Assembly: GCA_900472675.1 (NCBI GenBank) | Contig: UCJA01000005.1 | Span: 1 to 64,000, forward strand | DNA length: 64,000 nucleotides | Reading direction: 5' to 3' | From: Hyphomicrobiales bacterium | Lineage (GTDB): Bacteria; Pseudomonadota; Alphaproteobacteria; Rhizobiales; Rhizobiaceae | In this document: positions 20,486 to 33,511 of the stretch, one piece after another | Layout: every line of letters begins with the position of its first letter | Position numbering within the stretch: position 1 is the stretch's first letter | Position numbers and translations under genes: made by a program | The notes under the pieces: model-generated | What the model saw: only the letters and a program-made list of their open reading frames with translations | What the model was told of the DNA's origin: nothing | The model's database searches: none

Positions 20486-20905
20486 TCAGGCGACCTGGTA
20501 TTTTTCCGGGGCAAGCACGAGGCTCGCCGGCGGCTGCAGCGCTTGATCTCCCTCCACCACGGCGGTCAGGTATTCTAGCGCGTTCTTCATGCCGTTCATC
20601 GTATAGGGCTTCTCGATAGCACCCAGCGCGCCTGCGAAGTCGGGCGGCAGCTTCTTGATATTGCCGCTGACGAACACATAGGGCACGCCGTTGCCGGCGA
20701 GATCGCGGCCGACGTCGATGCCGGTCGGTCCATCCACCAGATGGATGTCGACAAAGGCGAAGTCCGGTTGCGTGGACTGCATCAGATCACGTGCCTGGGC
20801 ACTGCTCAGCGCAACGCCGACAACCTCATGGCCGGCGATCTCCACTTCGCTCTCCAGTTCGAGAGCCAGCAGCGCCTCGTCTTCCACGATCAGGACTTTC
20901 ATCAT
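20486..20905 (-). CDS. Single-domain response regulator
   Basis: 139 residues, a receiver domain with no output domain. Acidic pocket VEDE (residues 7-10), phospho-acceptor Asp53 in [11 protein letters not shown], and Lys in IEKPYTM. The start overlaps the stop of the LOV kinase (ATGATG over TGA), so the two are translated together. This resembles the partner regulators of HWE/HisKA_2 kinases, which pass signals by phosphotransfer or by competing for a PhyR-type regulator. C-terminal 20 residues are a variable tail. Confidence 0.93.
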
Positions 20906-22026
20906 TCATGCTCCAGGGGGTTTTCGATCGGCAGCGTCACGTCCACGGTCGTCCGCCGGCCGTCTACGGTTTTGGTGAGAGTAGCGCCCAGCTGGCGCAC
21001 GGACGCCTCCAGGATCATGCGACCGATTTCAGCGCTTTCGCTATCCACCACCACGGGATCGGATGTGTCTTCAACGCGGATCAGGAAGCGGTCTTCGAGC
21101 TTCTTGACGACGAGGTTGATCTTTCCACCGCCGTCGCTCAGGCCGCGCCGGGTGGCGTCGCCCACAAGCTCGTTGACGATCAGAGACAGCGGCGATGCTT
21201 TGACCGCCGGCACAAACACCGGCGACAGGTCGATCGTCATGTGAATGTCGTCGCGCTTGATGGCGTTCACCAGGTCGGCCACCAGCTCCCGGGCGAAATC
21301 GGCAATGTCGAACTTCGACACGTCGTCCAGGGTAAAGAGCTTCCGCTGCACCGTACTCAGCGCCTCGACGCGGTTGAGCGTGGACATCAGTACCTGCTTT
21401 TGCCCCTCGTCTTTCGTCTGCCGCGCCTGCAGCTTGATGATGGAGGCGATCGTCAAAAGGTTGTTCTTCACCCGGTGGTCGACCTCGTGCACCAGCAGGC
21501 TGCGGGCCGAAAGCGCCGTGCGCAGGTCGGCCATATGCTTGGCCACATCCTTTTCCGCCTGGTGCCGGGCCGCAGCAAGCGAGGCTTCGCGGCTCTTGAC
21601 GGTGGTAAAGTCAAGCTGCGAGGCAAAGAAATAGACGATACTGCCGGCATCGTCGCGCACAGGGCTGAGGAACAGCGCGTTCCAGAAGGTGGAACCGTCC
21701 TTGCGGTAGTTGAGGATGTCGACGGCAATATCCGTGCCGGCAGCAATCGCCTCCCGCAGGCGCGCCACGGTCTCACGGTCGGTCTCAGCGCCCTGCAGAA
21801 ACCGGCAGTTGCGGCCGATCACGTCTTCGTTGCTATAGCCGGTCATCTTCTCGAAGGCGGCATTACAAAAGATGATCGGATTGTCCGGCTGCTTTGGATC
21901 GGTCACGATCATCGGCATGCGCGTCGCCTTGAAGGCCGCTGCGAAAGGGTCTTCGCGCACATGGGCGGCAACAAGGCGATCACCCGCGTCACGGGCATCC
22001 GTCTGATGTTGGTCGCGGGAGGGCAT
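20902..22026 (-). CDS. LOV-domain blue-light sensor histidine kinase
   Basis: 374 residues. N-terminal LOV/PAS domain (about 28-140) carries the flavin-adduct motif GRNCRFLQG with Cys74, then [19 protein letters not shown], as in bacterial LOV-HKs. A coiled linker (about 145-175) leads to a HisKA_2/HWE-type dimerisation segment, [11 protein letters not shown], with His184. The ATPase domain looks degenerate: the N-box reads [11 protein letters not shown], lacking the second Asn, and the G1 region reads [11 protein letters not shown] without the usual glycines. Coupled by 4 nt to the response regulator. A GAGGAA ribosome site lies 5 nt before the ATG, and a possible EcfG promoter is upstream. 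Confidence 0.93.
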
Positions 22027-22225: not shown

Positions 22226-23140
22226 TCAGTCGTGCCGGGAAAGAAAGGCTGAAACGGTGGACAGGCACAGCGCCTTTTCTTCCACGTGAGGCATATGGCT
22301 GGAGTGCTCGAACACCACCCATTCGCTGCCCGCAACCCTGTCCACATAGGGCTTCACCACCAGGGGCGTCGCCTCGTCATACCGGCCGGAAATCACCAGC
22401 GTTGGTGCTGTGATGCGTGGCAGCCGGTCCTCGATCGTCCAGTCCTTCATGGTGCCGATCACATGAAATTCCGTCGGACCGTTCATGTGGCGATAGACGG
22501 TATTGTCTTCGTCCATGGCGTCGAAGGTGCGCGCCACTTCCGGCGGCCAAGGCACGACACGGCACACATGCCGGTCGTAAAATACCCGCGAGGCGGCGAT
22601 GTAGTCCGGATCGGTGATCGTTCCCGCCTCTTCATGCGCAAGCAGCGTATCCTGCACCTCCTGCGGCAGTTCCGCCCGCAGCCGGTTGGCTTCCGCGACC
22701 CAGGTATGCATGTTGGCGGGCGAATTGGCGATCACCAGCGCCTTCAGTCCCGGTGGCTGGCGAACCGCGTGTTCGGCTCCCAGCATGCCGCCCCAGGATT
22801 GGCCGAGAAAGGCGTAGCGGTCGGCGATGCCCAGGTGGGCAAGCAGCGCGTCGAGTTCCTCGAGGAAGAGGGCGGGGGTCCAGAAGTCCGGCCCCTTGTC
22901 GGGCAGCCGGGTCGATCGCCCGTTGCCAAGCTGGTCGTAGTGGATGACGGCCCGGCCATCCAGTTCCGTGATGCCCTTGAAGCTGTCCACATAGTCGTGC
23001 GTGCAGCCGGGCCCGCCATGCGCGACCACCAGCGGCAGCTTGTCGCCATCCAGCGTGCCGGTGATGCGGTACCAGGTTCGGTAGTCGCGAAACGGAAGAT
23101 AGGCGTCCATCACGGGAATTGCGGCCACGAGCGTCTCCAT
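22226..23140 (-). CDS. Proline iminopeptidase-like alpha/beta hydrolase
   Basis: 304 residues. Alpha/beta-hydrolase of the proline iminopeptidase/amino acid amidase group. Oxyanion loop [13 protein letters not shown] (HGGPG), nucleophile elbow [11 protein letters not shown] (Ser in GxSxGG), acid in [10 protein letters not shown] and catalytic His in EHSSHMPH. Family members release N-terminal residues from small peptides or amides. ATG at 23140; 52 nt downstream of the LuxR solo in the same orientation, probably co-transcribed. It is about 40% similar by eye to the second hydrolase at 24102-24992, so the two are paralogs on either side of the regulator. Confidence 0.9.
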
Positions 23141-23192
23141 CTTAACGGCAGGTCCGCAAACCATAGCCACGCCCAAACGACGGCGGCAGCTA

Positions 23193-23975
23193 TTACAAGT
23201 GATAGGATGGGCGCGGGTCGAGCAGCCGGTAATGCACGGCCCGAACCACGGCCTGGGTCCGGTTGCGGGCGCCGAGCTTGCGGGCCGCGGCGTTGAGATG
23301 CATCACCACCGTCGGCACCGAGCGCTGGATGATCCGCGAGATCTCCTTGGCCGACAGCCCTTCCGCGGAATGGCGCAGGCACTCCCGCTCCCTTGCGGTG
23401 AGGCGGATCTTGCCGAAGCAGAGCGCGTCGGCGTCAAACAGCGGATAGGCGGCCTCGTGGAACACATGCGCCAAAAGGTTGAAATCGGCGATGCGGCTGA
23501 GGGCATGCGCCTCGAACGCCTTGTCGGTGCCGAACCTTATGCCGGTGACGGTGGCAAAATCGCCGCGCGGCATGTGCACCGGCACGGTCACGCCGGCCGA
23601 CATGTCGCGGTCGCGCAGGTACCGGGTCACGGGCGCCGTATCGTCGCTCATGAACCGGCCGATCGGGCTGTCCGCGCAGGTGTCGTAGTTCCACAGGAAG
23701 GGTGAGCTGGTGCGCAGTGCAGCCTGCTGCACCGGGTCGATGCGAAAATAGCCCCGGTCGAACCAGTATTCCCGCATGTCCTCGGAGATATTGCGCAGCT
23801 TCAGCAACGACGGCACGATGATCTCGCCATCCAGATCGAAGGGCACCGGCGTGTAATCATAGATCAGCGCATCGAAGCCGAGCGCCTTGATCGCCTCGAA
23901 CCCCTGGTCGATCCGGCCCTCCAGCGTCTCATGGACGCAGAACTGTCGTCTGATCGCGCCGATCTCATCAAGCAT
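23193..23975 (-). CDS. LuxR-family solo regulator, PipR/OryR type
   Basis: 260 residues: N-terminal autoinducer-binding domain (about 10-175) and C-terminal GerE helix-turn-helix ([20 protein letters not shown], about 193-245). Aligned on TraR with a constant offset of 10, D70, P71 and W85 are kept (Asp80, Pro81, Trp95), but W57 and Y61 are Met67 and Trp71 in [10 protein letters not shown]. That Trp-to-Met, Tyr-to-Trp pair is the hallmark of plant-associated LuxR solos (OryR, XccR, PsoR, NesR, PipR), which answer plant compounds rather than AHLs. No luxI is in the window. ATG at 23975 has GGAG 6 nt upstream; TTG at 23978 is less likely. Confidence 0.93.
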
Positions 23976-24019
23976 CAAAGGCTCCGTCGGAAAGATTTTC
24001 CCAACCTATCACTAATAAT

Positions 24020-24040
24020 AGCTGGCAAAGATCGCCGGCT
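24020..24040. promoter_or_regulatory. Imperfect inverted repeat in the luxR-pip divergent region
   Basis: AGCTGGC-(7 nt)-GCCGGCT, 6 of 7 arm positions complementary, between the divergent LuxR-solo and hydrolase genes. Its 21-bp span is close to a lux box (about 18-20 bp). Candidate regulator site only. Confidence 0.35.
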
Positions 24041-24058
24041 GCGGTAAAAATTTAGCCA

Positions 24059-24075
24059 TGCCCAGATATTGGGCA
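24059..24075. promoter_or_regulatory. Candidate lux-box-like operator upstream of pip
   Basis: A perfect inverted repeat TGCCCA-GATAT-TGGGCA (17 bp), ending 26 nt before the ATG of the divergent hydrolase. XccR and OryR activate neighbouring pip genes through lux-box-like palindromes in the pip promoter, so this is the best candidate site for the LuxR solo. Confidence 0.5.
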
Positions 24076-24101
24076 AGGGAAATCTTTTGCCGGAGCGGCC
24101 C

Positions 24102-24992
24102 ATGTGGCGTGAACTGCAGCCTGACGCGCGACATGAGGTCGAGGTCGATGGCTACAAGGTAGTGGCCTACTCCTTCGGCACCGGCTCGGAAACGGTGCTT
24201 TGTCTCAACGGCGGCCCCGGATTGCCCTGTGATTATCTCCGCGAGGCCCATTCCTGTCTGGTCGACCAGGGCTACCGCGTCGTCGCCTTCGATCAGCTCG
24301 GCACCGGTGCCTCCGATCGCCCGAATGATCGGGCGCTGTGGACCATCGGCCGCTATGTCGAGGAAACGGAAACGGTGCGCAAGGCGCTCGGCCTTGGCAA
24401 GGTGCACATGCTCGGCCACTCCTGGGGCGGCTGGCTGGCAATCGATTATGCGCTGACCTACCCGGAAAACCTGCACACGCTGATCCTCGAAGACACCGTC
24501 GCGGACATGCCGCATCTCGTCTCCGAGCTGGAGCGGCTGCGGGCAGCGCTGGGGCCGGAAACCGTGGCCATGATGCAAAAGCATGAGGCGCAGGGCACCT
24601 ACGATCATCCCGAATACCAGGCAGCGGTCACCATCCTCAACTACCGTCATGTCTGTCGCCTGCCCGAGTGGCCGGCCCCGGTCCGCCGCTCGCTCGATGA
24701 TTGGAACATGGGTCCCTACGAGACCATGCAGGGTCCGAACGAATTCCTCTACATCGGCAACCTGAAGGACTGGAACCGCATCCCGGATCTGCCGCGGGTG
24801 ACCCTGCCGGTGCTGATCACCACGGGAGAGCATGACGAACTGACGCCCGCCTGTGCCCTTCGCATGAAGCTTGCCCTGCCGAATGCGGAGCTCAAGGTTT
24901 TTGCCAACGCCAGCCACATGCCCTTCTACGAAAACCCGCAGGCCTATTACCCGGCCCTTCTCGATTTCCTCTCGCGGCATCGGGCCGGCTGA
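24102..24992 (+). CDS. Proline iminopeptidase-like alpha/beta hydrolase
   Basis: 296 residues. Second hydrolase of the locus, divergent from the LuxR solo. Motifs: CLNGGPGLPCDY (oxyanion loop, NGGPG), GHSWGGWLAIDY (Ser nucleophile), TTGEHDELTP (acid) and ANASHMPFYE (His). ATG at 24102 follows GGAG with 6 nt spacing; an in-frame start at 24069 would put translation inside the palindrome at 24059-24075. It lies 51 nt ahead of the ABC transporter genes in the same direction, so it likely heads the operon 24102-31559. Likely acts on a peptide or amide imported by that transporter. Confidence 0.92.
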   Translation: MWRELQPDARHEVEVDGYKVVAYSFGTGSETVLCLNGGPGLPCDYLREAHSCLVDQGYRVVAFDQLGTGASDRPNDRALWTIGRYVEETETVRKALGLGKVHMLGHSWGGWLAIDYALTYPENLHTLILEDTVADMPHLVSELERLRAALGPETVAMMQKHEAQGTYDHPEYQAAVTILNYRHVCRLPEWPAPVRRSLDDWNMGPYETMQGPNEFLYIGNLKDWNRIPDLPRVTLPVLITTGEHDELTPACALRMKLALPNAELKVFANASHMPFYENPQAYYPALLDFLSRHRAG

Positions 24993-25043
24993 TGCAGGGG
25001 AGGACTATCGCACAAGGGACAACACGAGAGGGCGGGCGGCCAC

Positions 25044-25982
25044 ATGCATCGCTATAGGTTCATCCTCACCCGGCCGTTCCAGTTCCTCCCGGTCCTGTTC
25101 GGCATCAGCGTCATTACTTTCATCCTCGTCCGGCTGATCCCCGGCGATCCGGCCCGCAATATCCTCGGCACCCGCGCAACCCCGGCCGCACTCGCCAACA
25201 TCCGGGCCCAGTACGGCCTCGACCAGCCCGTCTGGCTGCAGTATTTCTACTTCCTCAAGAACCTTGCGAACGGCGAGATGGGCAAGTCGATCCTCTACAA
25301 GATCGACGTCCTGCAACTGATCGGCACCCGTATCGAGCCCACCATCGCGCTGGTGCTGACAAGCGTCGTCCTGTCGATCCTGATCGCCGTACCCATGGCG
25401 GCCATCGCCGCGCGCAATGCCGGACGCGCGCCGGATCATGCGGTGCGCATCGTCTCCACTTTCGGCATCGGCCTTCCGCCCTTCTGGCTGGGCCTCATGC
25501 TGATCATCCTGTTCAGCGTCCAACTGGGTGTCTTGCCGGTCTCCGGCTATGGGTCGACCTTTGGCGACAAGCTCTCGCACCTCGTCCTGCCCAGCCTCAC
25601 CGTTGCCCTGTCTCTCTCGACAGTGCTGACCCGCAGCCTGCGCTCGGCCATGATCGAGCAGCTGAAATCCGATGTCGCGACGGCCGCCCGCGCCCGCGGC
25701 ATGCCGGAAAGCATCGTCTTCTGGCGCCATGTGGTGCCGAACTCCCTCGTGCCCACCATCAACCTTCTCGCCGTCAACATCGGCTGGCTGATCGGCGGCA
25801 CGGTCGTCGTGGAAACCGTGTTTGCGCTTCCCGGCATGGGCCAGCTGCTGGTGCGGGCGATCTTTTCGAGGGACTACATGGTCGTCCAGGGCGTCGCCAT
25901 GACCTTTGCCTGCGCCACCGTGCTCGTCAATTTTCTGGCCGACATTGTCACCGTCGCCGTCGACCCGAGGGTGAAGCTATGA
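25044..25982 (+). CDS. Dipeptide/oligopeptide-type ABC transporter permease (DppB-like)
   Basis: 312 residues, six transmembrane helices, BPD-type inner membrane component. N-terminal signature (GISVITFILVRLIPGDPARNIL, split by a Pro-Gly) and the EAA loop AARARGMPESIVFWRHVVPNS (about 213-233), which docks on the ATPase. First transporter gene of the pip operon; its stop overlaps the next permease start by 4 nt. Family substrates include peptides, opines, nickel and glutathione. Confidence 0.95.
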   Translation: MHRYRFILTRPFQFLPVLFGISVITFILVRLIPGDPARNILGTRATPAALANIRAQYGLDQPVWLQYFYFLKNLANGEMGKSILYKIDVLQLIGTRIEPTIALVLTSVVLSILIAVPMAAIAARNAGRAPDHAVRIVSTFGIGLPPFWLGLMLIILFSVQLGVLPVSGYGSTFGDKLSHLVLPSLTVALSLSTVLTRSLRSAMIEQLKSDVATAARARGMPESIVFWRHVVPNSLVPTINLLAVNIGWLIGGTVVVETVFALPGMGQLLVRAIFSRDYMVVQGVAMTFACATVLVNFLADIVTVAVDPRVKL

Positions 25983-26830
25983 GCGTCGAGACCATCTCTC
26001 CCGCACCCATCGTCCGCCGGCGTCTCCTCCCACGGCGCCTGACGCTTGTGGTCGGTGCCGGCATCCTGCTGGTCTTTCTCGTCCTGGCGCTCACTGCTCC
26101 GCTGGTCGCGCCTTATGACCCCATCTACCAGAATGCCGAGGTGCGGCTGCAGCCGCCCTCGCTTGCCCACCTGTTCGGCACGGACAACTTCGGCCGCGAT
26201 ATCCTTTCCCGCGTCATCTGGGGTGCCAGGATCGATCTCCAGATCGCGGTCATCGGCGTCCTCTTCCCCTTCCTGATCGGCACCACGGTCGGCACGGTCG
26301 CGGGCTTCTTCGGCGGCGTGGTCGATGCGGCCTTCATGCGCCTCGTCGATATCATCCTGGCCTTTCCCTTTCTGGTGCTGATGCTCTCCATTATCGCGAT
26401 CCTCGGGCCCGGGCTCGGCAGCTTCTACATCGCCATGGCGCTGGTCGGCTGGGTCTCCTATGCGCGGCTCATCCGCGCCCAGATGCTGGTGCTGAAGAGC
26501 AGCGACTATGCGGTCGCCGCCGTCAGCCTCGGCTTCAGCCGCACCCGCATCATGTTCCGCCATCTCCTGCCCAACGCCATTGCCGGCTCCATCGTCTTTT
26601 CCATGTCGGATGCGACGCTGGTGCTGCTGAGCGGTGCTGCGGTCAGCTATCTCGGGCTCGGGGTCCAGCCACCGCTTGCCGAATGGGGCGTCATGGTCGC
26701 TGAGGGCCAAAGCTTCATCACCACCGGCTGGTGGATCGCAGTCTTCCCGGGCCTCTCCATCGTCACCCTCGCCTTCGGTTTCAGCCTGCTGGGCGATGCC
26801 CTGGGTGAGCTTCTGGGAGTGCACGAATGA
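25979..26830 (+). CDS. Dipeptide/oligopeptide-type ABC transporter permease (DppC-like)
   Basis: 283 residues, second permease subunit. Conserved DppC features: PLVAPYDPIYQN and HLFGTDNFGRDILSRVIWGAR after the first helix, FMRLVDIILAFPFLVL, and the EAA loop AAVSLGFSRTRIMFRHLLPN. Overlaps both neighbours by 4 nt (ATGA), so the three transporter genes are translationally coupled. Confidence 0.95.
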   Translation: MSVETISPAPIVRRRLLPRRLTLVVGAGILLVFLVLALTAPLVAPYDPIYQNAEVRLQPPSLAHLFGTDNFGRDILSRVIWGARIDLQIAVIGVLFPFLIGTTVGTVAGFFGGVVDAAFMRLVDIILAFPFLVLMLSIIAILGPGLGSFYIAMALVGWVSYARLIRAQMLVLKSSDYAVAAVSLGFSRTRIMFRHLLPNAIAGSIVFSMSDATLVLLSGAAVSYLGLGVQPPLAEWGVMVAEGQSFITTGWWIAVFPGLSIVTLAFGFSLLGDALGELLGVHE

Positions 26831-28548
26831 GCGGCACCCTGCTTTCGGTTCGCGATTTGACGCTCACGGTCCAGGGGGAGGGCGGCCCCCGCACGCTGAT
26901 CGACAACGTCGCCTTCGATCTCCGCGAGGGCGAAATCCTTGGACTTGTCGGTGAAAGCGGCTCCGGCAAGAGCCTTCTCTGCCGTTCGCTGGTCCGGCTC
27001 CTGCCGTCGTTGCTGATCCGCATGGAGAGCGGCGCGATCCACCTTCAGGGACGCGACCTGGCGACGATCAGCGATGCGGAGATGCTCAAGGTCCGCGGCG
27101 GCGAGATCGGCATGATCTTCCAGAACCCGACCAGCCACCTCGATCCTGTCATGCGCATCGGAGACCAGATCGCCGAAGGTATCCGCTATCACCAGCGGCT
27201 GGGGGCAGGCCCGGCCCGCGCCGCTGCCGTGGAGATCCTTGCCCAGGTCGGGTTTCCCGATCCGAAGCGCCAGTACGACAGCTATCCGCATGAGTTCTCC
27301 GGCGGCATGCGCCAGCGCGCCATGATCGGCGTGGCGCTCTCCTGCGACCCGAAGATCCTGATTGCCGACGAGCCGACCACAGCGCTCGACGTCACCATCC
27401 AGGCGCAGATCCTGACGCTGCTGATGGACATCCGCGACAAGCGCGGCCTGTCGATCATCCTCATCACCCACGATCTCGGCATCGTCGCCCAGACCTGCGA
27501 CCGGATCGCAGTAATGCGCGCCGGCAGGCTGCTGGAACAGGGGCCGAAGCGCCAGATCCTGTCCAATCCGAAAGATCCCTATACGATCAACCTGATCAGC
27601 AGCCATCCCTCCATGCCTGAGGGCACGGCGGCGGCGATGTTCGTTCCCGCCGAAGCGCCGGTTGCCGGCCTGCCGAGGGTAAAGCCGCTTCTGGAGATCG
27701 ACGATCTGCATGTGCGCTTCAGAACCGGCGGCAGCCTGTTCAAGGGCGGCGCCAAGACCATCAGTGCCGTCGCAGGCGTCAGCCTGCAGGTTATGCCCGG
27801 CGAAACCGTCGGCATCGTCGGGGAAAGCGGTTCGGGCAAGAGCACGCTCGCGCGCGCCATCCTTGGGCTAAACGAAATCTCCTCAGGTCATGTCTCCTTT
27901 GACGGCGTCGATCTGGCCCAGCAGCGCGGGGCGGGCCTCGCCAAGCTGCGGCGCGAAGCGGCCATGGTCTTCCAGGATCCCTACAACGCGCTCAACCCGC
28001 GGCTCACCATCGGCCAGACGCTGGCCGAGGTGCTGAAGGTGCAGGGCAAGTGTCCCCCGTCCGCCATCCGCGCCCGCGTCGAGGAACTGCTGGATCTCGT
28101 CGGCCTGGAACGGGAGTTCGCCACGCGCAAGCCGCGCAGCATGAGTGGCGGCCAGTGCCAGCGCGCCGGCATCGCCCGGGCGCTTGCGGTCGATCCGAAG
28201 CTGATCATCGCGGACGAATGCGTCGCCGCCCTCGACGTGACGATCCAGGCGCAGATCATCGCGCTGTTCCGTCAACTCACCGAGACGATGAACCTGACGC
28301 TGCTGTTCATTGCCCACGATCTCGCCATCGTACGCAACCTCTGCGAACGGGTGATCGTCATGTATCGCGGCGAAATCGTCGAGCAGGGCCGCTCCGAGGA
28401 GATCTTCGCGCGCCCGCAGCATGCCTATACCGCGGCGCTGATTGCCGCCATTCCCGACATCGACCCGGACAGGCCGCTTTTGAGCCGACCAGCACCCCGC
28501 TGCGACCTGCTCCCGATGCCGGTCCTACCTGCCGAGACAATGCCCTGA
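26827..28548 (+). CDS. Fused two-domain ABC transporter ATPase (DppD-DppF-like)
   Basis: 573 residues containing two complete nucleotide-binding domains in one chain. First: Walker [12 protein letters not shown], signature [11 protein letters not shown], Walker [14 protein letters not shown]. Second (from about 295): [13 protein letters not shown], signature [12 protein letters not shown], Walker [14 protein letters not shown], where the usual Pro-Thr after ADE is Cys-Val. Each NBD ends with the oligopeptide-family C-terminal segment. Powers the DppB/DppC-like channel. Fused ATPases of this type are common in rhizobial peptide transporters. Confidence 0.95.
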
Positions 28549-28599
28549 CAATCAAAGCCATAACACTTCAACGCTACGACAAAAAAAGGGAACAGCACG

Positions 28600-30114
28600 A
28601 TGATCACCAAGTGGAAATCCGTCGGACTTGCCGCACTTCTCGCCGGTCTGACACTCACCGCAAGCTATGCCGAAGCCGCCGGCGTCCTCACCATCGGCCG
28701 CCGCGAGGACTCGACCACCTTCGACCCCATCAAGACGGCGCAGAACATCGACAACTGGGTCTTCTCAAACGTCTATGACGTGCTGATCCGCGTCGATAAG
28801 GCCGGCACCAAGCTGGAGCCCGGCCTTGCCGAAAGCTGGTCCACCTCGGAAGATGGCCTCACCTACGTCCTCAAGATCCGTGATGCGAAGTTTTCAGACG
28901 GCTCGCCGCTGACGGCCGAAGATGCAGCCTACAGCCTGCTGCGCGTTCGCGACGATGCCGGTTCGCTCTGGAGCGATAGCTACAAGGTTATCGATACGGC
29001 AGTCGCCACCGACCCGCGGACGCTGACCATCAAGCTCAAGAACCCCTCGGCACCCTTCCTGTCGACGCTGGCGCTGCCCAATGCCTCCGTCATCTCCAAG
29101 GCCGGCATGGAATCGCTTGGACCGGAGGCCTACGCCGAAAAGCCGATCGCCTCGGGCGCCTTCACGGTCGATGAATGGCGCCGCGGCGATCGCGTCATCC
29201 TCAATAAGAATCCCAATTTCTGGCAGGCGGAGCGGGTCAAGCTCGATGGCGTCGAATGGATCTCGGTTCCGGACGATAACACCCGCATGCTGAACGTCCA
29301 GGCCGGCCAGCTCGATGCGGCCATCTTCGTGCCCTTCTCGCGGGTCGCCGAGCTGAAGAAGGATGCCAACCTCTCCGTGCTGACCGATCCCTCGACCCGT
29401 GAGGATCATCTCCTGATCAACCACGCCCATGGTGATCTCGGCAAGAAGGAGGTGCGTATGGCGCTGGATATGGCGATCGACAAGAAGGCGATCGTCGATG
29501 CCGTGACCTTCGGGGCGGGCACCGTCGCCAACTCCTATATCCCCAAGGGCGCTCTCTATTATTATGCGGACAATCTGCAGCGCCCCTATGATCCGGAAGG
29601 CGCCAAAAAGCTGCTGGCCGACGCCGGCGTATCGAACCTGACGCTGAACTATCTCATCCGCGCCGGCGACGAGGTAGACGAGCAGACCGCGGTCCTCGTG
29701 CAGCAGCAGCTCGCCAAGGCCGGCATCACCGCCAACCTGCAGAAGGTCGATCCCAGCCAGGAATGGGACATGGTCGTTGCCGGCGAATACGACATCTCGG
29801 TCAACTACTGGACCAACGACATCCTCGACCCGGACCAGAAGACCACCTTCGTTCTGGGCCACGATTCCAACAACAACTACTCGACCAACTACAAGAACGA
29901 TGCCGTCAAGGATCTGGTCGCCAAGGCCCGGCTGGAGCTCGACCCCAAGAAGCGTGAAGCCATGTATGTCGAGCTGCAGAAGATGGCCAAGGCCGATGTG
30001 AACTGGATCGACCTCTACTACAGCCCCTACATCAATGTCTCCCGCAAGAACGTCGAGGGTTTCTACCAGAACCCGCTCGGCCGCTTCTTCCTGGAAGACA
30101 CCGTCAAGAACTGA
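28600..30114 (+). CDS. Family 5 periplasmic solute-binding protein
   Basis: 504 residues with a Sec signal peptide (KWKSVGLAALLAGLTLTASY, cleavage after AEA near 26). SBP_bac_5 features: TFDPIKTAQNIDNWVFSNVYD, LEPGLAESWSTSEDGLTYVLKI and KEVRMALDMAIDKKAIVDAV. Periplasmic receptor of the transporter encoded just upstream. The family binds peptides, opines, nickel and other small molecules; the ligand is not deducible, but the neighbouring amidase and peptidases point to a small amide or peptide. GGGA ribosome site at about -10. Followed by a strong hairpin (30139-30168). Confidence 0.95.
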   Translation: MITKWKSVGLAALLAGLTLTASYAEAAGVLTIGRREDSTTFDPIKTAQNIDNWVFSNVYDVLIRVDKAGTKLEPGLAESWSTSEDGLTYVLKIRDAKFSDGSPLTAEDAAYSLLRVRDDAGSLWSDSYKVIDTAVATDPRTLTIKLKNPSAPFLSTLALPNASVISKAGMESLGPEAYAEKPIASGAFTVDEWRRGDRVILNKNPNFWQAERVKLDGVEWISVPDDNTRMLNVQAGQLDAAIFVPFSRVAELKKDANLSVLTDPSTREDHLLINHAHGDLGKKEVRMALDMAIDKKAIVDAVTFGAGTVANSYIPKGALYYYADNLQRPYDPEGAKKLLADAGVSNLTLNYLIRAGDEVDEQTAVLVQQQLAKAGITANLQKVDPSQEWDMVVAGEYDISVNYWTNDILDPDQKTTFVLGHDSNNNYSTNYKNDAVKDLVAKARLELDPKKREAMYVELQKMAKADVNWIDLYYSPYINVSRKNVEGFYQNPLGRFFLEDTVKN

Positions 30115-30138
30115 CCGGATAGCCCGGACATGACGATC

Positions 30139-30168
30139 ATGCCTCGCCGCAACCAAGCGGCGGGGCAT
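30139..30168 (+). terminator. Intercistronic hairpin after the binding-protein gene
   Basis: 12-bp stem ATGCCTCGCCGC-AACCAA-GCGGCGGGGCAT with one T-G wobble. No T-run follows, so it is more likely an mRNA-stabilising or partial-attenuation element, as often found after binding-protein genes, allowing less of the amidase downstream. Confidence 0.6.
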
Positions 30169-30191
30169 TCTGGTAACCGGAGGAGAGAACC

Positions 30192-31559
30192 ATGACGCCC
30201 GACGAGATTGCATTCATGAGCGTCACGGAGCTCGGCCGGGCCTATCGGGACGGTTCCTTGTCGCCGGTGGACGTGGTTCGATTAAGCTTGCAGCGGATGG
30301 ATGCGCTGGAGCCCGCACTCAATGCCGTGGCAGGTCGTCTCGACGAGAGCGCGCTTGCGCAGGCGCAGCAGGCAGCGGCAGAGCTGCGTGTCGGCATCGA
30401 TCGTGGACCCCTGCATGGCATCCCGGTCGCCATCAAGGACCTGATCGAGGTCAAGGGCGCACCGACCGGCTTCGGCAGCAAGGTGCGGCCGCCGGCCATC
30501 GCCACTGAGGACGCAGTCCTCGTGCAGAACCTGCGTGAAGCGGGCGCCATCATTCTTTGCAAGGCAAACCTGCTGGAATATGCCTATGGCATCGCCCATC
30601 CGGATGTGGGCCAGACCAACAACCCCCACGATGTCGGCCGCACCTCCGGCGGCTCGAGCGGCGGCTCCGCGGCGCTGGTTGCGGCGGGCATCGTACCGCT
30701 CGCCGTCGGTACGGACACGGGCGGCTCGATCCGCATCCCCGCCTCCTACTGCGGCGTCGTCGGCCTGAAACCCACCTTCGGACTGGTCTCGCTGGAAGGC
30801 GTCTTTCCGCTCTCCTGGAGCCTCGACCATGCGGGGCCGCTGGCGCGCAGCGTCGAGGATGCAGCGCTGCTTTTGGCCGGGATGACGGGAGCACACACAG
30901 CTTTGCCGCAAGGCTCGCTAGCCGGTCTGCGGATCGGTGCTGTGAGCTTCCAGTGCGAAAGCCCCGAGCTGACGGACGCCGTTGCCGCCAATCTCGCCCG
31001 ATCGCTGGAGCGGCTCGCACAGGCGGGAGCGACGATCACGCGGGTCGAGATCCCCGAGCTTGCGCTCGCCAATGCGCAGCTGCGTCGCATCATCCTGCCG
31101 GAAGCCTCCGTCATCCATTCGCAGCTTCATGCGGAAAACCCGGCCGGCTATGCGCCGCGCACCCGCGCGCAGGTCGAGGCCGGCTTTAACGCGAATGCCG
31201 TCGACTATATCCGCGCCAGGAATTTTCAGCTCAGCCTGCGCGGGGCCGTCGAGGCAGCCTTCGCGGAGGTCGATGTGCTGCTGGGCCCGAGCGTGCCTTT
31301 TCCGGCGCCGGTCGAAGATCCGGAATTCACGGAGGATGGCGAGGAGGGCGAGATGCTGTCGAGCGGTTTTGCCAACATGACCGGGCAGCCGTCGCTCAGC
31401 CTGCCGTCCGGCATGGATGGCCACTTGCCTCTGGGGCTGCAACTGACCGGGCCGATGGGTAGAGACGACGCACTCCTGCAGGCCGCCCGTGCCATCGAGG
31501 CGGTTCTGGATGAGGCCGTCCGTCCCGTCTTTCCTGCCGGGATTGAAGCGGCAGGGTAA
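30192..31559 (+). CDS. Amidase signature family hydrolase
   Basis: 455 residues with the full Ser-cisSer-Lys triad of amidase signature enzymes: Lys82 in [11 protein letters not shown], cis-Ser about 155-156 in [18 protein letters not shown] and nucleophile Ser179 in [13 protein letters not shown]. Hydrolyses a linear amide; family members include GatA, indoleacetamide hydrolase and 6-aminohexanoate amidase, and the substrate cannot be told apart here. No gatB/gatC nearby, so it is not the tRNA amidotransferase. ATG at 30192 follows GGAGGAGAG. Last gene of the pip-transporter operon, cytosolic, positioned to cleave an imported amide. Confidence 0.93.
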
Positions 31560-31667: not shown

Positions 31668-31801
31668 CCGGCGGCAAAAATGGCATTTACTCGACCCGCC
31701 CGTTTCTACGCCCGCCCGTCTTTTCACCCGTCTCATTTTTGTCCCGCTCGCCCCCGAGCCTTACGTCCGCAAGCCATACCGCTGCGGCCATCGAGAGTAT
31801 G

Positions 31802-33511
31802 ATGACCAGCATACTGACCAATATTGCCAGCATGGCCGCCCTGCAGACCCTGCGTTCCGTCGGCACCTCCCTTGCAAAGACACAGGACGAAGTGAGCTCC
31901 GGTCTGCGCGTCGGCAGGGCTGCCGACGGTGTCGCCTACTGGTCCATCTCCACCACCATGCGTTCGGACAACAAGGCGATCGGCAGCGCTCGCGACGCCA
32001 TGCAGGTGGGCGCGGCGAAGACGGACGTCGGCTACGCCGCCACCACGGCGATTATCGATGTCCTGAACGAGTTCAAGGCAAAGCTGGTCACGGCCAAGGA
32101 GAGCAGCTCCGATCCGGCCAAGATCCAGCAGGAACTGAGCGACCTCAACGGTCAGGCAGAGGCGGTGGTGAAGTCCGCCAGCTTCGCCGGCATCAACTGG
32201 CTGAAGACGTCGGCGCCGCAGCACATCAACGACACCAACGACCTCAACGATACGGTCGTCTCCGGCTTCGTGCGCGCCTCCAACGGCAGCGTCAGCGTCT
32301 CGACCATCCAGGTCGACCTGCGCACCACGAGCATGCTCAATACGGGCGGCGGCGGCATTCTGCAGAAGGACGATCCGGATTACTACATGCCGGTGAGGGG
32401 CCCTTCCCTAGATACCTTCCGCCACAATGGCCACGAGGATCATGGCTTCAAGGGCCCGGTCACCTTCGACGCGACCTCGTCGGTCACCTTCGACCTGACA
32501 GTCGATGCCAGCGATATGGACGCGGGCGACACCTATGCGGGCGTCACGGTGGACAAATCGGTGGTCGATGCGGCGCTCGGAACCACGGACGGCGTCATCA
32601 AAGATGTGGCGGCCTTGCGCCAGGTTCTCCAGCAGGCGTTTGATAACGCAGGCGCCGGCAGTGCCGCCAATGTCTACGGCACCTGGTCGACCGCTGCCTC
32701 GTCCGCCACCCGCTACGAAATCCAGTCGCTGGACACCTCGTCCCATGCGGGTTCGAGTATCTCTTTGTCCAACATTGCGTCCACGCTGGATCCGTTGATC
32801 TCCGAGCGGCTGCTGGGCCTCGACACCACGCCGGGGCTCAATCACGACAACCTGCTTCCGCATGCCACCATGAGCTTCACGCAGCCTTTCAAGGTCATGG
32901 TGGATGCCACGATTTCCTTCGATCTCTCGGTAGCAGGTGCTGCGCAGACAACCTATGTCATCGACCGCGCGGCGGTGGATGCGGCGCTTGGAACCAGCGA
33001 CGGCATGATCAACAATGCGACCGATCTGGCAACAGTCGTGGAGTACACGGCTTCCGGTTCCGGCATGCAGGCCGATGTGAGCGGCAACAGCATCACCTTC
33101 AGGGCGGATCAGTCCGTCTATCCGGGCTACGGCACGAAGGCGGTGGAGTTCAACATGAGCAGCCTGAGGCCGAACCCGCCGTTCGCACTGCGGTTCGATC
33201 TGGCGGAGATCGACATCACGTCGAACGCCTTCACCGTTGATGAGTATCTCGATGGCGTCGAGCATATGCTCGGCCAGGCAACCACCAGTGCGGCCACCAT
33301 GGGGTCGATCCAGCAGGCGCTCGATCTTGAGGAAGAGTATGCCGGTAAGCTCAGCGATTCCCTCGACAGCGGCATTAGCCGGCTGGTGGACGCTGATATG
33401 GAAAACGCGTCTGCGAGGCTCGCTGCCCTGCAGACGCAGCAGCAGCTGGCAGTGCAGGCGCTGCAGATCGCCAATACGAGCAGCAGCAGCCTCATGACGC
33501 TGTTCCAGTAG
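31802..33511 (+). CDS. Flagellin with enlarged, duplicated central region
   Basis: 569 residues, clearly longer than the 320-430 usual for rhizobial flagellins. The N-terminal D0/D1 region (MTSILTNIASMAALQTLRSV, SSGLRVGRAADGVAYWSIST, MRSDNKAIGSARDAMQVG) and the C-terminal D0 region (ALQTQQQLAVQALQIANTSS, LMTLFQ) are canonical, so it should assemble in a filament. The middle contains two related modules: about 222-282 (VVDAALGTTDGVIKD) and about 367-416 (AVDAALGTSDGMINN). The two are still alike at DNA level. Start ATG at 31802 matches family; ATG at 31799 is also possible. Orphan location, no other flagellar gene in the window. Confidence 0.93.
   Translation: MTSILTNIASMAALQTLRSVGTSLAKTQDEVSSGLRVGRAADGVAYWSISTTMRSDNKAIGSARDAMQVGAAKTDVGYAATTAIIDVLNEFKAKLVTAKESSSDPAKIQQELSDLNGQAEAVVKSASFAGINWLKTSAPQHINDTNDLNDTVVSGFVRASNGSVSVSTIQVDLRTTSMLNTGGGGILQKDDPDYYMPVRGPSLDTFRHNGHEDHGFKGPVTFDATSSVTFDLTVDASDMDAGDTYAGVTVDKSVVDAALGTTDGVIKDVAALRQVLQQAFDNAGAGSAANVYGTWSTAASSATRYEIQSLDTSSHAGSSISLSNIASTLDPLISERLLGLDTTPGLNHDNLLPHATMSFTQPFKVMVDATISFDLSVAGAAQTTYVIDRAAVDAALGTSDGMINNATDLATVVEYTASGSGMQADVSGNSITFRADQSVYPGYGTKAVEFNMSSLRPNPPFALRFDLAEIDITSNAFTVDEYLDGVEHMLGQATTSAATMGSIQQALDLEEEYAGKLSDSLDSGISRLVDADMENASARLAALQTQQQLAVQALQIANTSSSSLMTLFQ

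Follow-up and report, generated by a model that had tools for sequence, protein, structure and literature searches.

Which kind of system is encoded where a LuxR-type gene lies between two peptidase genes, with a peptide importer and an amidase gene beyond them, and which part of it is new? The question is raised by positions 22226–31559 of a 64,000-nucleotide stretch from a Hyphomicrobiales bacterium of the family Rhizobiaceae (assembly GCA_900472675.1, contig UCJA01000005.1, positions 1 to 64,000 of the forward strand; the whole stretch is called the window here). A preliminary description, made from the letters alone, had seen in it a complete locus for sensing, importing and hydrolysing a plant compound. 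Judged by its sequence, the locus is a Pip system of the rhizobial (NesR) branch, built around a LuxR protein of the type found in plant-associated bacteria (PAB). Its core is a known, well-conserved and widespread system and, apart from the amidase, the locus is an ordinary member of it. The terminal amidase is a real addition, a new element in an otherwise known arrangement. All eight genes described earlier are present in the order and on the strands given (Pfam and NCBIfam), with only small start-codon corrections:

22226–23140, minus strand: pip1 (pipA-type), a proline iminopeptidase-family alpha/beta hydrolase, 304 amino acids from the conserved start
23188–23207, minus strand: predicted pip box 2, TCCTATCACTTGTAATAGCT, overlapping the luxR stop codon
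23193–23975, minus strand: luxR (PipR/NesR/OryR-type PAB LuxR), 260 amino acids, with M57, W61, D70, P71, Q73 and W85
24004–24023, plus strand: predicted pip box 1, ACCTATCACTAATAATAGCT, between the divergent luxR and pip2 genes
24102–24992, plus strand: pip2 (aapA-type), a second proline iminopeptidase-family hydrolase, 296 amino acids
25044–25982, plus strand: aapB-type ATP-binding cassette (ABC) permease (BPD_transp_1), kin of Opp2B/NikB but under the cut-offs of those models
25979–26830, plus strand: aapC-type ABC permease (BPD_transp_1, OppC_N), with a 4-nt overlap at either end
26827–28548, plus strand: fused two-domain ABC ATPase (aapD plus aapE), with two ABC_tran and two oligo_HPY stretches
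28600–30114, plus strand: aapF-type periplasmic binding protein (SBP_bac_5)
30192–31559, plus strand: accessory amidase-signature enzyme, 455 amino acids (PF01425, 330.7 bits)

The corrected starts were set by comparison with relatives. The pip1 reading frame runs to 23176 with a TTG, and the later start at 23140 is preferred; the likely luxR start is 23975, later than in the list of open reading frames; and the pip2 frame extends to 24069 with a TTG, while a conserved ATG region among relatives favours 24102. The 4-nt overlaps reported among the transporter genes hold for the two permease genes (25979–25982) and for the second permease and the ATPase (26827–26830), but not for the binding-protein gene, which follows a gap of 51 nt, nor for the amidase gene, which follows one of 77 nt.

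The assignment is carried by the regulator and the binding protein. LuxR has an Autoind_bind domain (98.7 bits) and a GerE domain (49 bits), and its ligand pocket has M57 and W61 with D70, P71 and W85 retained (TraR numbering). This is the pattern of the PAB LuxR solos, which carry W57M and/or Y61W and keep D70, P71 and W85; among 18 such proteins, position 57 is methionine in 13 and tryptophan in five, and position 61 is tryptophan in all (PMC3821632; this source and PMC4981722, PMC7301841, PMC8877191, PMC11064500 and PMC11168924 are cited from the parts of their text that were available). Among 115 distinct LuxR sequences, the window's counted, M57 is found in 113 and W61 in every one, and a glutamine follows DPV in 118 of 125 loci; the LuxR matches of L004, L005 and L006 were excluded from the pocket comparison for unreliable alignment. 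The binding protein matches AapF (7kz8/7kz9) with a phmmer E-value of 4e-236 over 482 ungapped residues and stands with its dedicated importer genes. It is because of the M57/W61 pocket and this AapF-orthologous protein that the locus is taken as a Pip system. Together with the flanking TIGR01250 hydrolases, they bear out the kinship with PipR that had been proposed earlier. No luxI-like gene occurs among the eight genes of the locus (Pfam, NCBIfam), and a PF00765 search gave no match in this genome, nor in any control genome.

Both flanking hydrolases score above the TIGR01250 cut-off of 168 bits (pip1 255, pip2 273) and below the cut-offs of the equivalog models NF045945 and NF045948; pip1 also matches Abhydrolase_1. 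The preliminary description had taken two pip paralogs on either side of the regulator to be new. This cannot be upheld, since such layouts are reported in PMC4981722, PMC11064500 and review tables, in the first two with a box before each pip gene. In Pseudomonas sp. GM79, pipR lies between aapA and pipA, whose purified products are both active aminopeptidases; the transporter genes aapB–F lie beyond aapA, and putative boxes are placed at −71.5 (pipA) and −91.5 (aapA) (PMC4981722). Thus GM79 shares with the window a luxR gene between two peptidase genes, a five-part peptide-type importer and inverted repeats upstream of both peptidase genes; it differs in that the window has fused ATPases, a LuxR with M57 (W57 in PipR) and a terminal amidase. 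Similarly, koyR of Klebsiella michiganensis LDS17 encodes an M57/W61 LuxR and is flanked by two pip genes, each preceded by a lux-box-like repeat; an ABC transporter cluster belongs to the locus, and the available part of PMC11064500 reports no amidase beside koyR. Review tables give the order pip/transporter–luxR–pip for NesR, OryR and others (PMC10134790, PMC4338825).

Conserved linkage across genomes, the test set by the earlier description, was examined in the named relatives, which are the best 80 of 137 loci from one LuxR scan of genome contigs. The luxR gene, both pip genes, the permease genes and the binding-protein gene keep their order and orientation in 78 of the 80, so the core passes; the exceptions are L076, where a contig end cuts pip1, and L133, where only luxR and pip2 were found. 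The ATPase likewise shows as a single stretch with a coverage of 70% or more in 78 of the 80 (not in L133, where no transporter was found, or L089, where the match is split in two; the match is also split in L080), and its fusion was therefore dropped as a novelty. The NesR-type loci of Sinorhizobium meliloti 4H41 (L072) and Ensifer aridi LMR001 (L067), among the closest known systems, have the same rhizobial gene order, a fused ATPase and a LuxR 79–80% identical to that of the window, but lack an amidase behind aapF.

In a wider family sample, such a LuxR occurs in 25 of 247 genomes, the window's counted, and was not found in three congeners. An AapF transporter adjoins luxR in 20 of the 24 other loci, the remaining four being L052–L055. 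Six of these 20 (L046–L051) have separate ATPases and no pip1 match, in L050 because the contig ends; L046, L047 and L049 carry two tandem aapA-type pip genes before the transporter. AapF at an E-value of 1e-150 or better was found in 25 of 397 genomes of an order sample. The ratios of nonsynonymous to synonymous substitution (dN/dS) are 0.07–0.09 for aapF and 0.08–0.10 for pip1. Compared with nine chosen relatives, the DNA is similar from the pip1 stop codon, or a point close to it, as far as the neighbourhood of the amidase stop codon in six relatives, all with the amidase; in the three without it, the similarity goes no further than the stop codon of aapF. In this genome the locus thus looks like a cassette, as far as such boundaries can indicate one.

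Control by LuxR is suggested by the DNA on its two sides. An alignment of the luxR-flanking regions of 88 loci has one strongly conserved 20-bp block on either side of the gene, so that a predicted lux/pip box stands upstream of each pip gene. Measured from its centre, box 2 precedes the probable pip1 start by 57.5 bp, and box 1 precedes the probable pip2 ATG by 88.5 bp and the luxR ATG by 38.5 bp; the corresponding GM79 sites are at −71.5 for pipA and −91.5 for aapA (PMC4981722). With up to five mismatches to the window pattern, box 1 (upstream side of luxR) was found in 116 and box 2 (downstream side) in 109 of 125 loci, a set that includes some duplicates of one genome and in which most loci differ from the pattern at two to three places; 27 of 625 random stretches, from which true sites were not excluded, also fell within five mismatches. 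One hundred shuffles of the window gave zero matches at three or fewer mismatches. No third box was found within two mismatches in the 5.4-Mb genome, a threshold that would miss more diverged sites, and the pattern read backwards gave one chance match as a control; a wider PipR regulon was set aside for want of such a box. LuxR control of both transcription units is likely because conserved boxes lie on each side of luxR and no third was found in the genome, and it likely reaches the amidase if the operon runs through. The defined box leaves two target promoters open to direct testing. In four other Pip systems (L193–L196), luxR, pip and transporter genes lie on one strand, the LuxR is diverged (37–42%) and the Rhizobium pip box is weak or absent.

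The amidase is the element by which this locus departs from its published counterparts. Its PF01425 match extends across profile positions 1–445. It contains Lys82, SGGSSGGS and GTDTGGSIR (motif stretches at residues 80–84, 153–159 and 173–181), which we take to be the Lys-Ser-Ser catalytic motifs of amidase signature enzymes. It could not be given a named type: among the models listed (25 of 26), including AtzE, indoleacetamide hydrolase, GatA and allophanate hydrolase, all scores fell below the NCBIfam cut-offs, the best being 286 bits for the AtzE family (cut-off 461). The best solved structure, 2dc0, is a probable amidase and is uninformative on substrate.

The amidase gene adjoins aapF in five of the 80 named relatives (L056, L059, L061, L063 and L100), or five of the 78 that could be judged; no binding-protein gene was found in L133, and L097 has only 121 nt beyond it. 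The same arrangement occurs on plasmids of Rhizobium sp. WYJ-E13 and BG4 (L200, L201) and in the more distant genome G316 (L141), where AapF is 74% and the amidase 60% identical to those of the window and the ATPases are separate. Pip-linked amidase loci thus number nine, the window counted. In all nine the amidase is on the same strand, with 65–84 nt between the aligned ends of aapF and amidase (53 nt by reading-frame start in L141), and its motifs are intact in the nine copies examined. The loci of the WYJ-E13 and BG4 plasmids, AFS048116, AFS079129, AFS066641, AFS000733 and R. lusitanum Opo-234 are complete, with amidases about 70–80% identical to the window's, on the same strand and at similar spacing. 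No terminator-like site was found between aapF and the amidase gene in the window. The terminal amidase of the preliminary description is upheld as a genuine addition. The amidase appears to be under purifying selection, since its dN/dS against six relatives is 0.12–0.17, looser than that of aapF and rough because synonymous divergence is near 1.

The gene is accessory: it comes and goes, and only a small minority of loci have it. Its presence needs at least seven changes on a tree of 109 AapF sequences, three of them forced by starred branches. When 109 other AapF loci were scanned downstream, two second copies of positive loci, a decayed remnant (L103) and a marginal match (L108) were found. 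No description of a terminal amidase in Pip operons was found in the freely available main texts searched on PAB LuxR and Pip systems; the word amidase does not occur in them except in the available part of PMC11064500, where it names an unrelated gene of the indoleacetamide pathway, located elsewhere. A plasmid of R. jaguaris (L199) carries an amidase 69% identical to the window's, and the 12 kb seen to either side of it contain no Pip gene. Two distant amidases near the Pip loci L034 and L135 were judged to be there by chance. In L033, L071, L073 and L076 a related gene occupies the amidase's place behind aapF. Its naming as AmiC was not used, the L033 copy being a Peripla_BP_5 (urea/amide-type) binding protein with a sub-cut-off match to UrtA, followed by another ABC importer.

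Pip modules are known gene sets with which plant-associated bacteria probably take up, detect and degrade a small molecule from plants, and the added amidase may help to destroy it. The account favoured here, and considered probable, is a plant-responsive system of this kind. In the periplasm, an AapF-like protein would bind a small compound of plant origin, peptide-like or an amide, and the ABC transporter would bring it into the cell. There the PAB-type LuxR would bind it and activate two units from the pip boxes, pip1 on one side and pip2–transporter–(amidase) on the other. The two Pip hydrolases would then degrade the ligand and so provide negative feedback, as in the model proposed for GM79. 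That strain is the source of the analogy: its aapB mutant gives no response to leaf macerate and its peptidase mutants over-respond, that is, import is required for induction and the peptidases dampen the response (PMC4981722). The amidase, added at the end of the transporter operon here and in a few relatives, would most likely hydrolyse an amide bond, either in the imported ligand or in one of its fragments. The family assignments of the eight genes support the set for import plus hydrolysis that had been described.

The same gene content could belong to an operon mainly for the uptake of small peptides or amides as nutrients, in which LuxR would be only an activator that responds to the substrate and would have no wider part in signalling. 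With no third box within two mismatches, a larger direct regulon is not visible, although more diverged sites would escape that search. Deletion of nesR in E. aridi LMR001, whose locus (L067) is without the amidase, lowers shoot weight and growth in 0.4 M NaCl and, on one of two hosts, the number of nodules (PMC8877191). A mainly nutritional role is regarded as unlikely, though it deserves to be kept in view.

A different objection to the plant-responsive Pip account concerns the amidase alone. Matches to it at an E-value of 1e-90 or better occur in four of 394 family genomes and nine of 397 order genomes (the window's genome being in both counts). In three of them, G037, G634 and G442, an amidase 57–61% identical to the window's ends the operon of a different, GntR-type cluster, with the order gntR, creatininase, PanE/ApbA, short-chain dehydrogenase/reductase (SDR), M20 peptidase (in two of the three) and amidase; this arm diverges from a peptide-type importer with its own binding protein, SBP2. 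This cluster (L140, L176 and L177) shares with the window the amidase and a peptide-type ABC importer, but has a GntR regulator, no LuxR or pip genes and an SBP2 only about 34–35% identical to AapF. In G316 the amidase lies behind aapF, and in the remaining seven genomes (G057 and six of the order sample; amidase 42–51% identical) neither aapF nor an SBP2 cluster was seen beside the amidase. The gntR–creatininase–PanE–SDR–(M20) cluster itself is conserved, in L239 (contig C21 of the window's own genome), L240, L242–L245, L247–L252, L140, L176 and L177. In Rhizobium-type genomes it includes an M32 carboxypeptidase gene, and the amidase is present only in L140, L176 and L177.

The amidase might therefore belong to this second cluster and be merely parked behind aapF, its substrate arriving through the other transporter. 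Besides ending the second-cluster operon in those three genomes, it is joined by the second cluster in six of the seven whole genomes with a Pip-linked amidase (G000 and G771–G775), where the cluster lacks its own amidase within the stretches of roughly 20 kb that were seen. In amidase-positive relatives the cluster shares a contig or plasmid with the Pip locus and is adjacent in some; in R. lusitanum Opo-234 (L243) the aapF–amidase end abuts the M20 end of the cluster. SBP2 was found in seven of eight genomes with the amidase against five of 23 without it (Fisher p 0.002) in a sample made up of the window's genome, G316 and the genomes behind named loci, a value that, with related genomes and 24 hand-picked controls, is a guide only. 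Adding the three genomes where amidase and SBP2 are known neighbours would give 10 of 11, which is circular. On the other side, G316 has the amidase behind aapF and SBP2 was not found in it; the window's genome keeps the two loci on separate contigs; five genomes retain the second cluster with no amidase at 1e-90 or better; and two Pip lineages whose AapF proteins are only 74% identical agree in the strand of the amidase and in its place behind aapF. A mere lodger behind aapF is, on this balance, a doubtful description of the enzyme.

The history of the amidase gene bears on the same choice. A single clade of the nine Pip-linked copies was rejected (approximately unbiased (AU) test, p 0.0002), the reason being that unlinked copies from G798 and R. 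jaguaris nest in the Rhizobium group. Joining the G316 copy and all ten Rhizobium-type copies in one clade was not rejected (AU p 0.137), nor was joining the cluster-linked G037 copy with those ten (p 0.414), and the pairing of the G316 and G037 copies in the best tree is weak. Two gains by Pip operons would be the reading with the fewest changes, while a single older gain with losses would also fit. Two captures would have strengthened the link between amidase and Pip system; with the AU value of 0.137, they are not taken as established.

Several of these results count against assigning the amidase to the imported ligand. Besides the 0.137, in 73 of the 78 named relatives that could be judged no amidase gene was found adjoining aapF, so the Pip system does without it there; the remnant at the expected place in L103 indicates that it can be lost; and its co-occurrence with SBP2 leaves room for service to the second cluster.

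It is tentatively suggested, as an idea of rather low probability, that one amidase lineage moves between the second amide/peptide-import cluster and Pip operons, having been captured by them perhaps twice, and there gives the Pip feedback loop a third enzyme that destroys the ligand. If so, the rhizobial Pip ligand would carry an amide bond of the kind found in the substrate of the second cluster, and the amidase would be a ready tool for identifying that ligand. If recruited into the operon, an amidase that has kin in a second import cluster would narrow the ligand chemistry to an amide.

No natural ligand of rhizobial NesR-type regulators is named in the literature searched on these regulators (PMC10134790 and the available parts of PMC8877191 and PMC3821632). 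One candidate is the GM79 PipR ligand N-(2-hydroxyethyl)-2-(2-hydroxyethylamino)acetamide (HEHEAA), which the amidase would split to ethanolamine and N-hydroxyethylglycine. By its name HEHEAA is an N-hydroxyethyl amide and would suit an amidase, and the AapF structure to which the window's protein aligns ungapped, 7kz9, is HEHEAA-bound according to a figure legend (PMC11168924). Against this, PipR has W57/W61 and the window's LuxR M57/W61, and a review reports that a close homologue of AapF does not bind HEHEAA (PMC10134790). PsrR, which has the M/W pair, is unresponsive to HEHEAA; this is a weak point that counts little, because PsrR is also unresponsive to rice root extract (PMC7301841). EutB was not found in the genome, so that ethanolamine would not be used by that route. 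HEHEAA import with ethanolamine catabolism is weakened by PipR W57, the AapF homologue and the EutB result, and is held to be improbable. That LuxR is a solo sensing N-acyl-homoserine lactones (AHL), as its Autoind_bind domain might suggest, is extremely unlikely and was rejected on the pocket, whose residues 57 and 61 are unlike those of AHL receptors (PMC3821632); W57 and Y61 are found instead in two other LuxR proteins of the same genome, the three further matches there not being reliably aligned.

Two further genes lie directly beside the locus. Beyond pip1, on the minus strand at 20486–22026, is a PAS and HisKA_2/HWE histidine kinase, followed by a response regulator. The PAS domain of the kinase contains NCRFLQG, presumably a motif like that of light-oxygen-voltage (LOV) domains, and the kinase is possibly a blue-light sensor. 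Beyond the amidase, on the plus strand at 31739–33511, is a flagellin-type protein of 590 amino acids, in which a long middle part separates the two flagellin ends.

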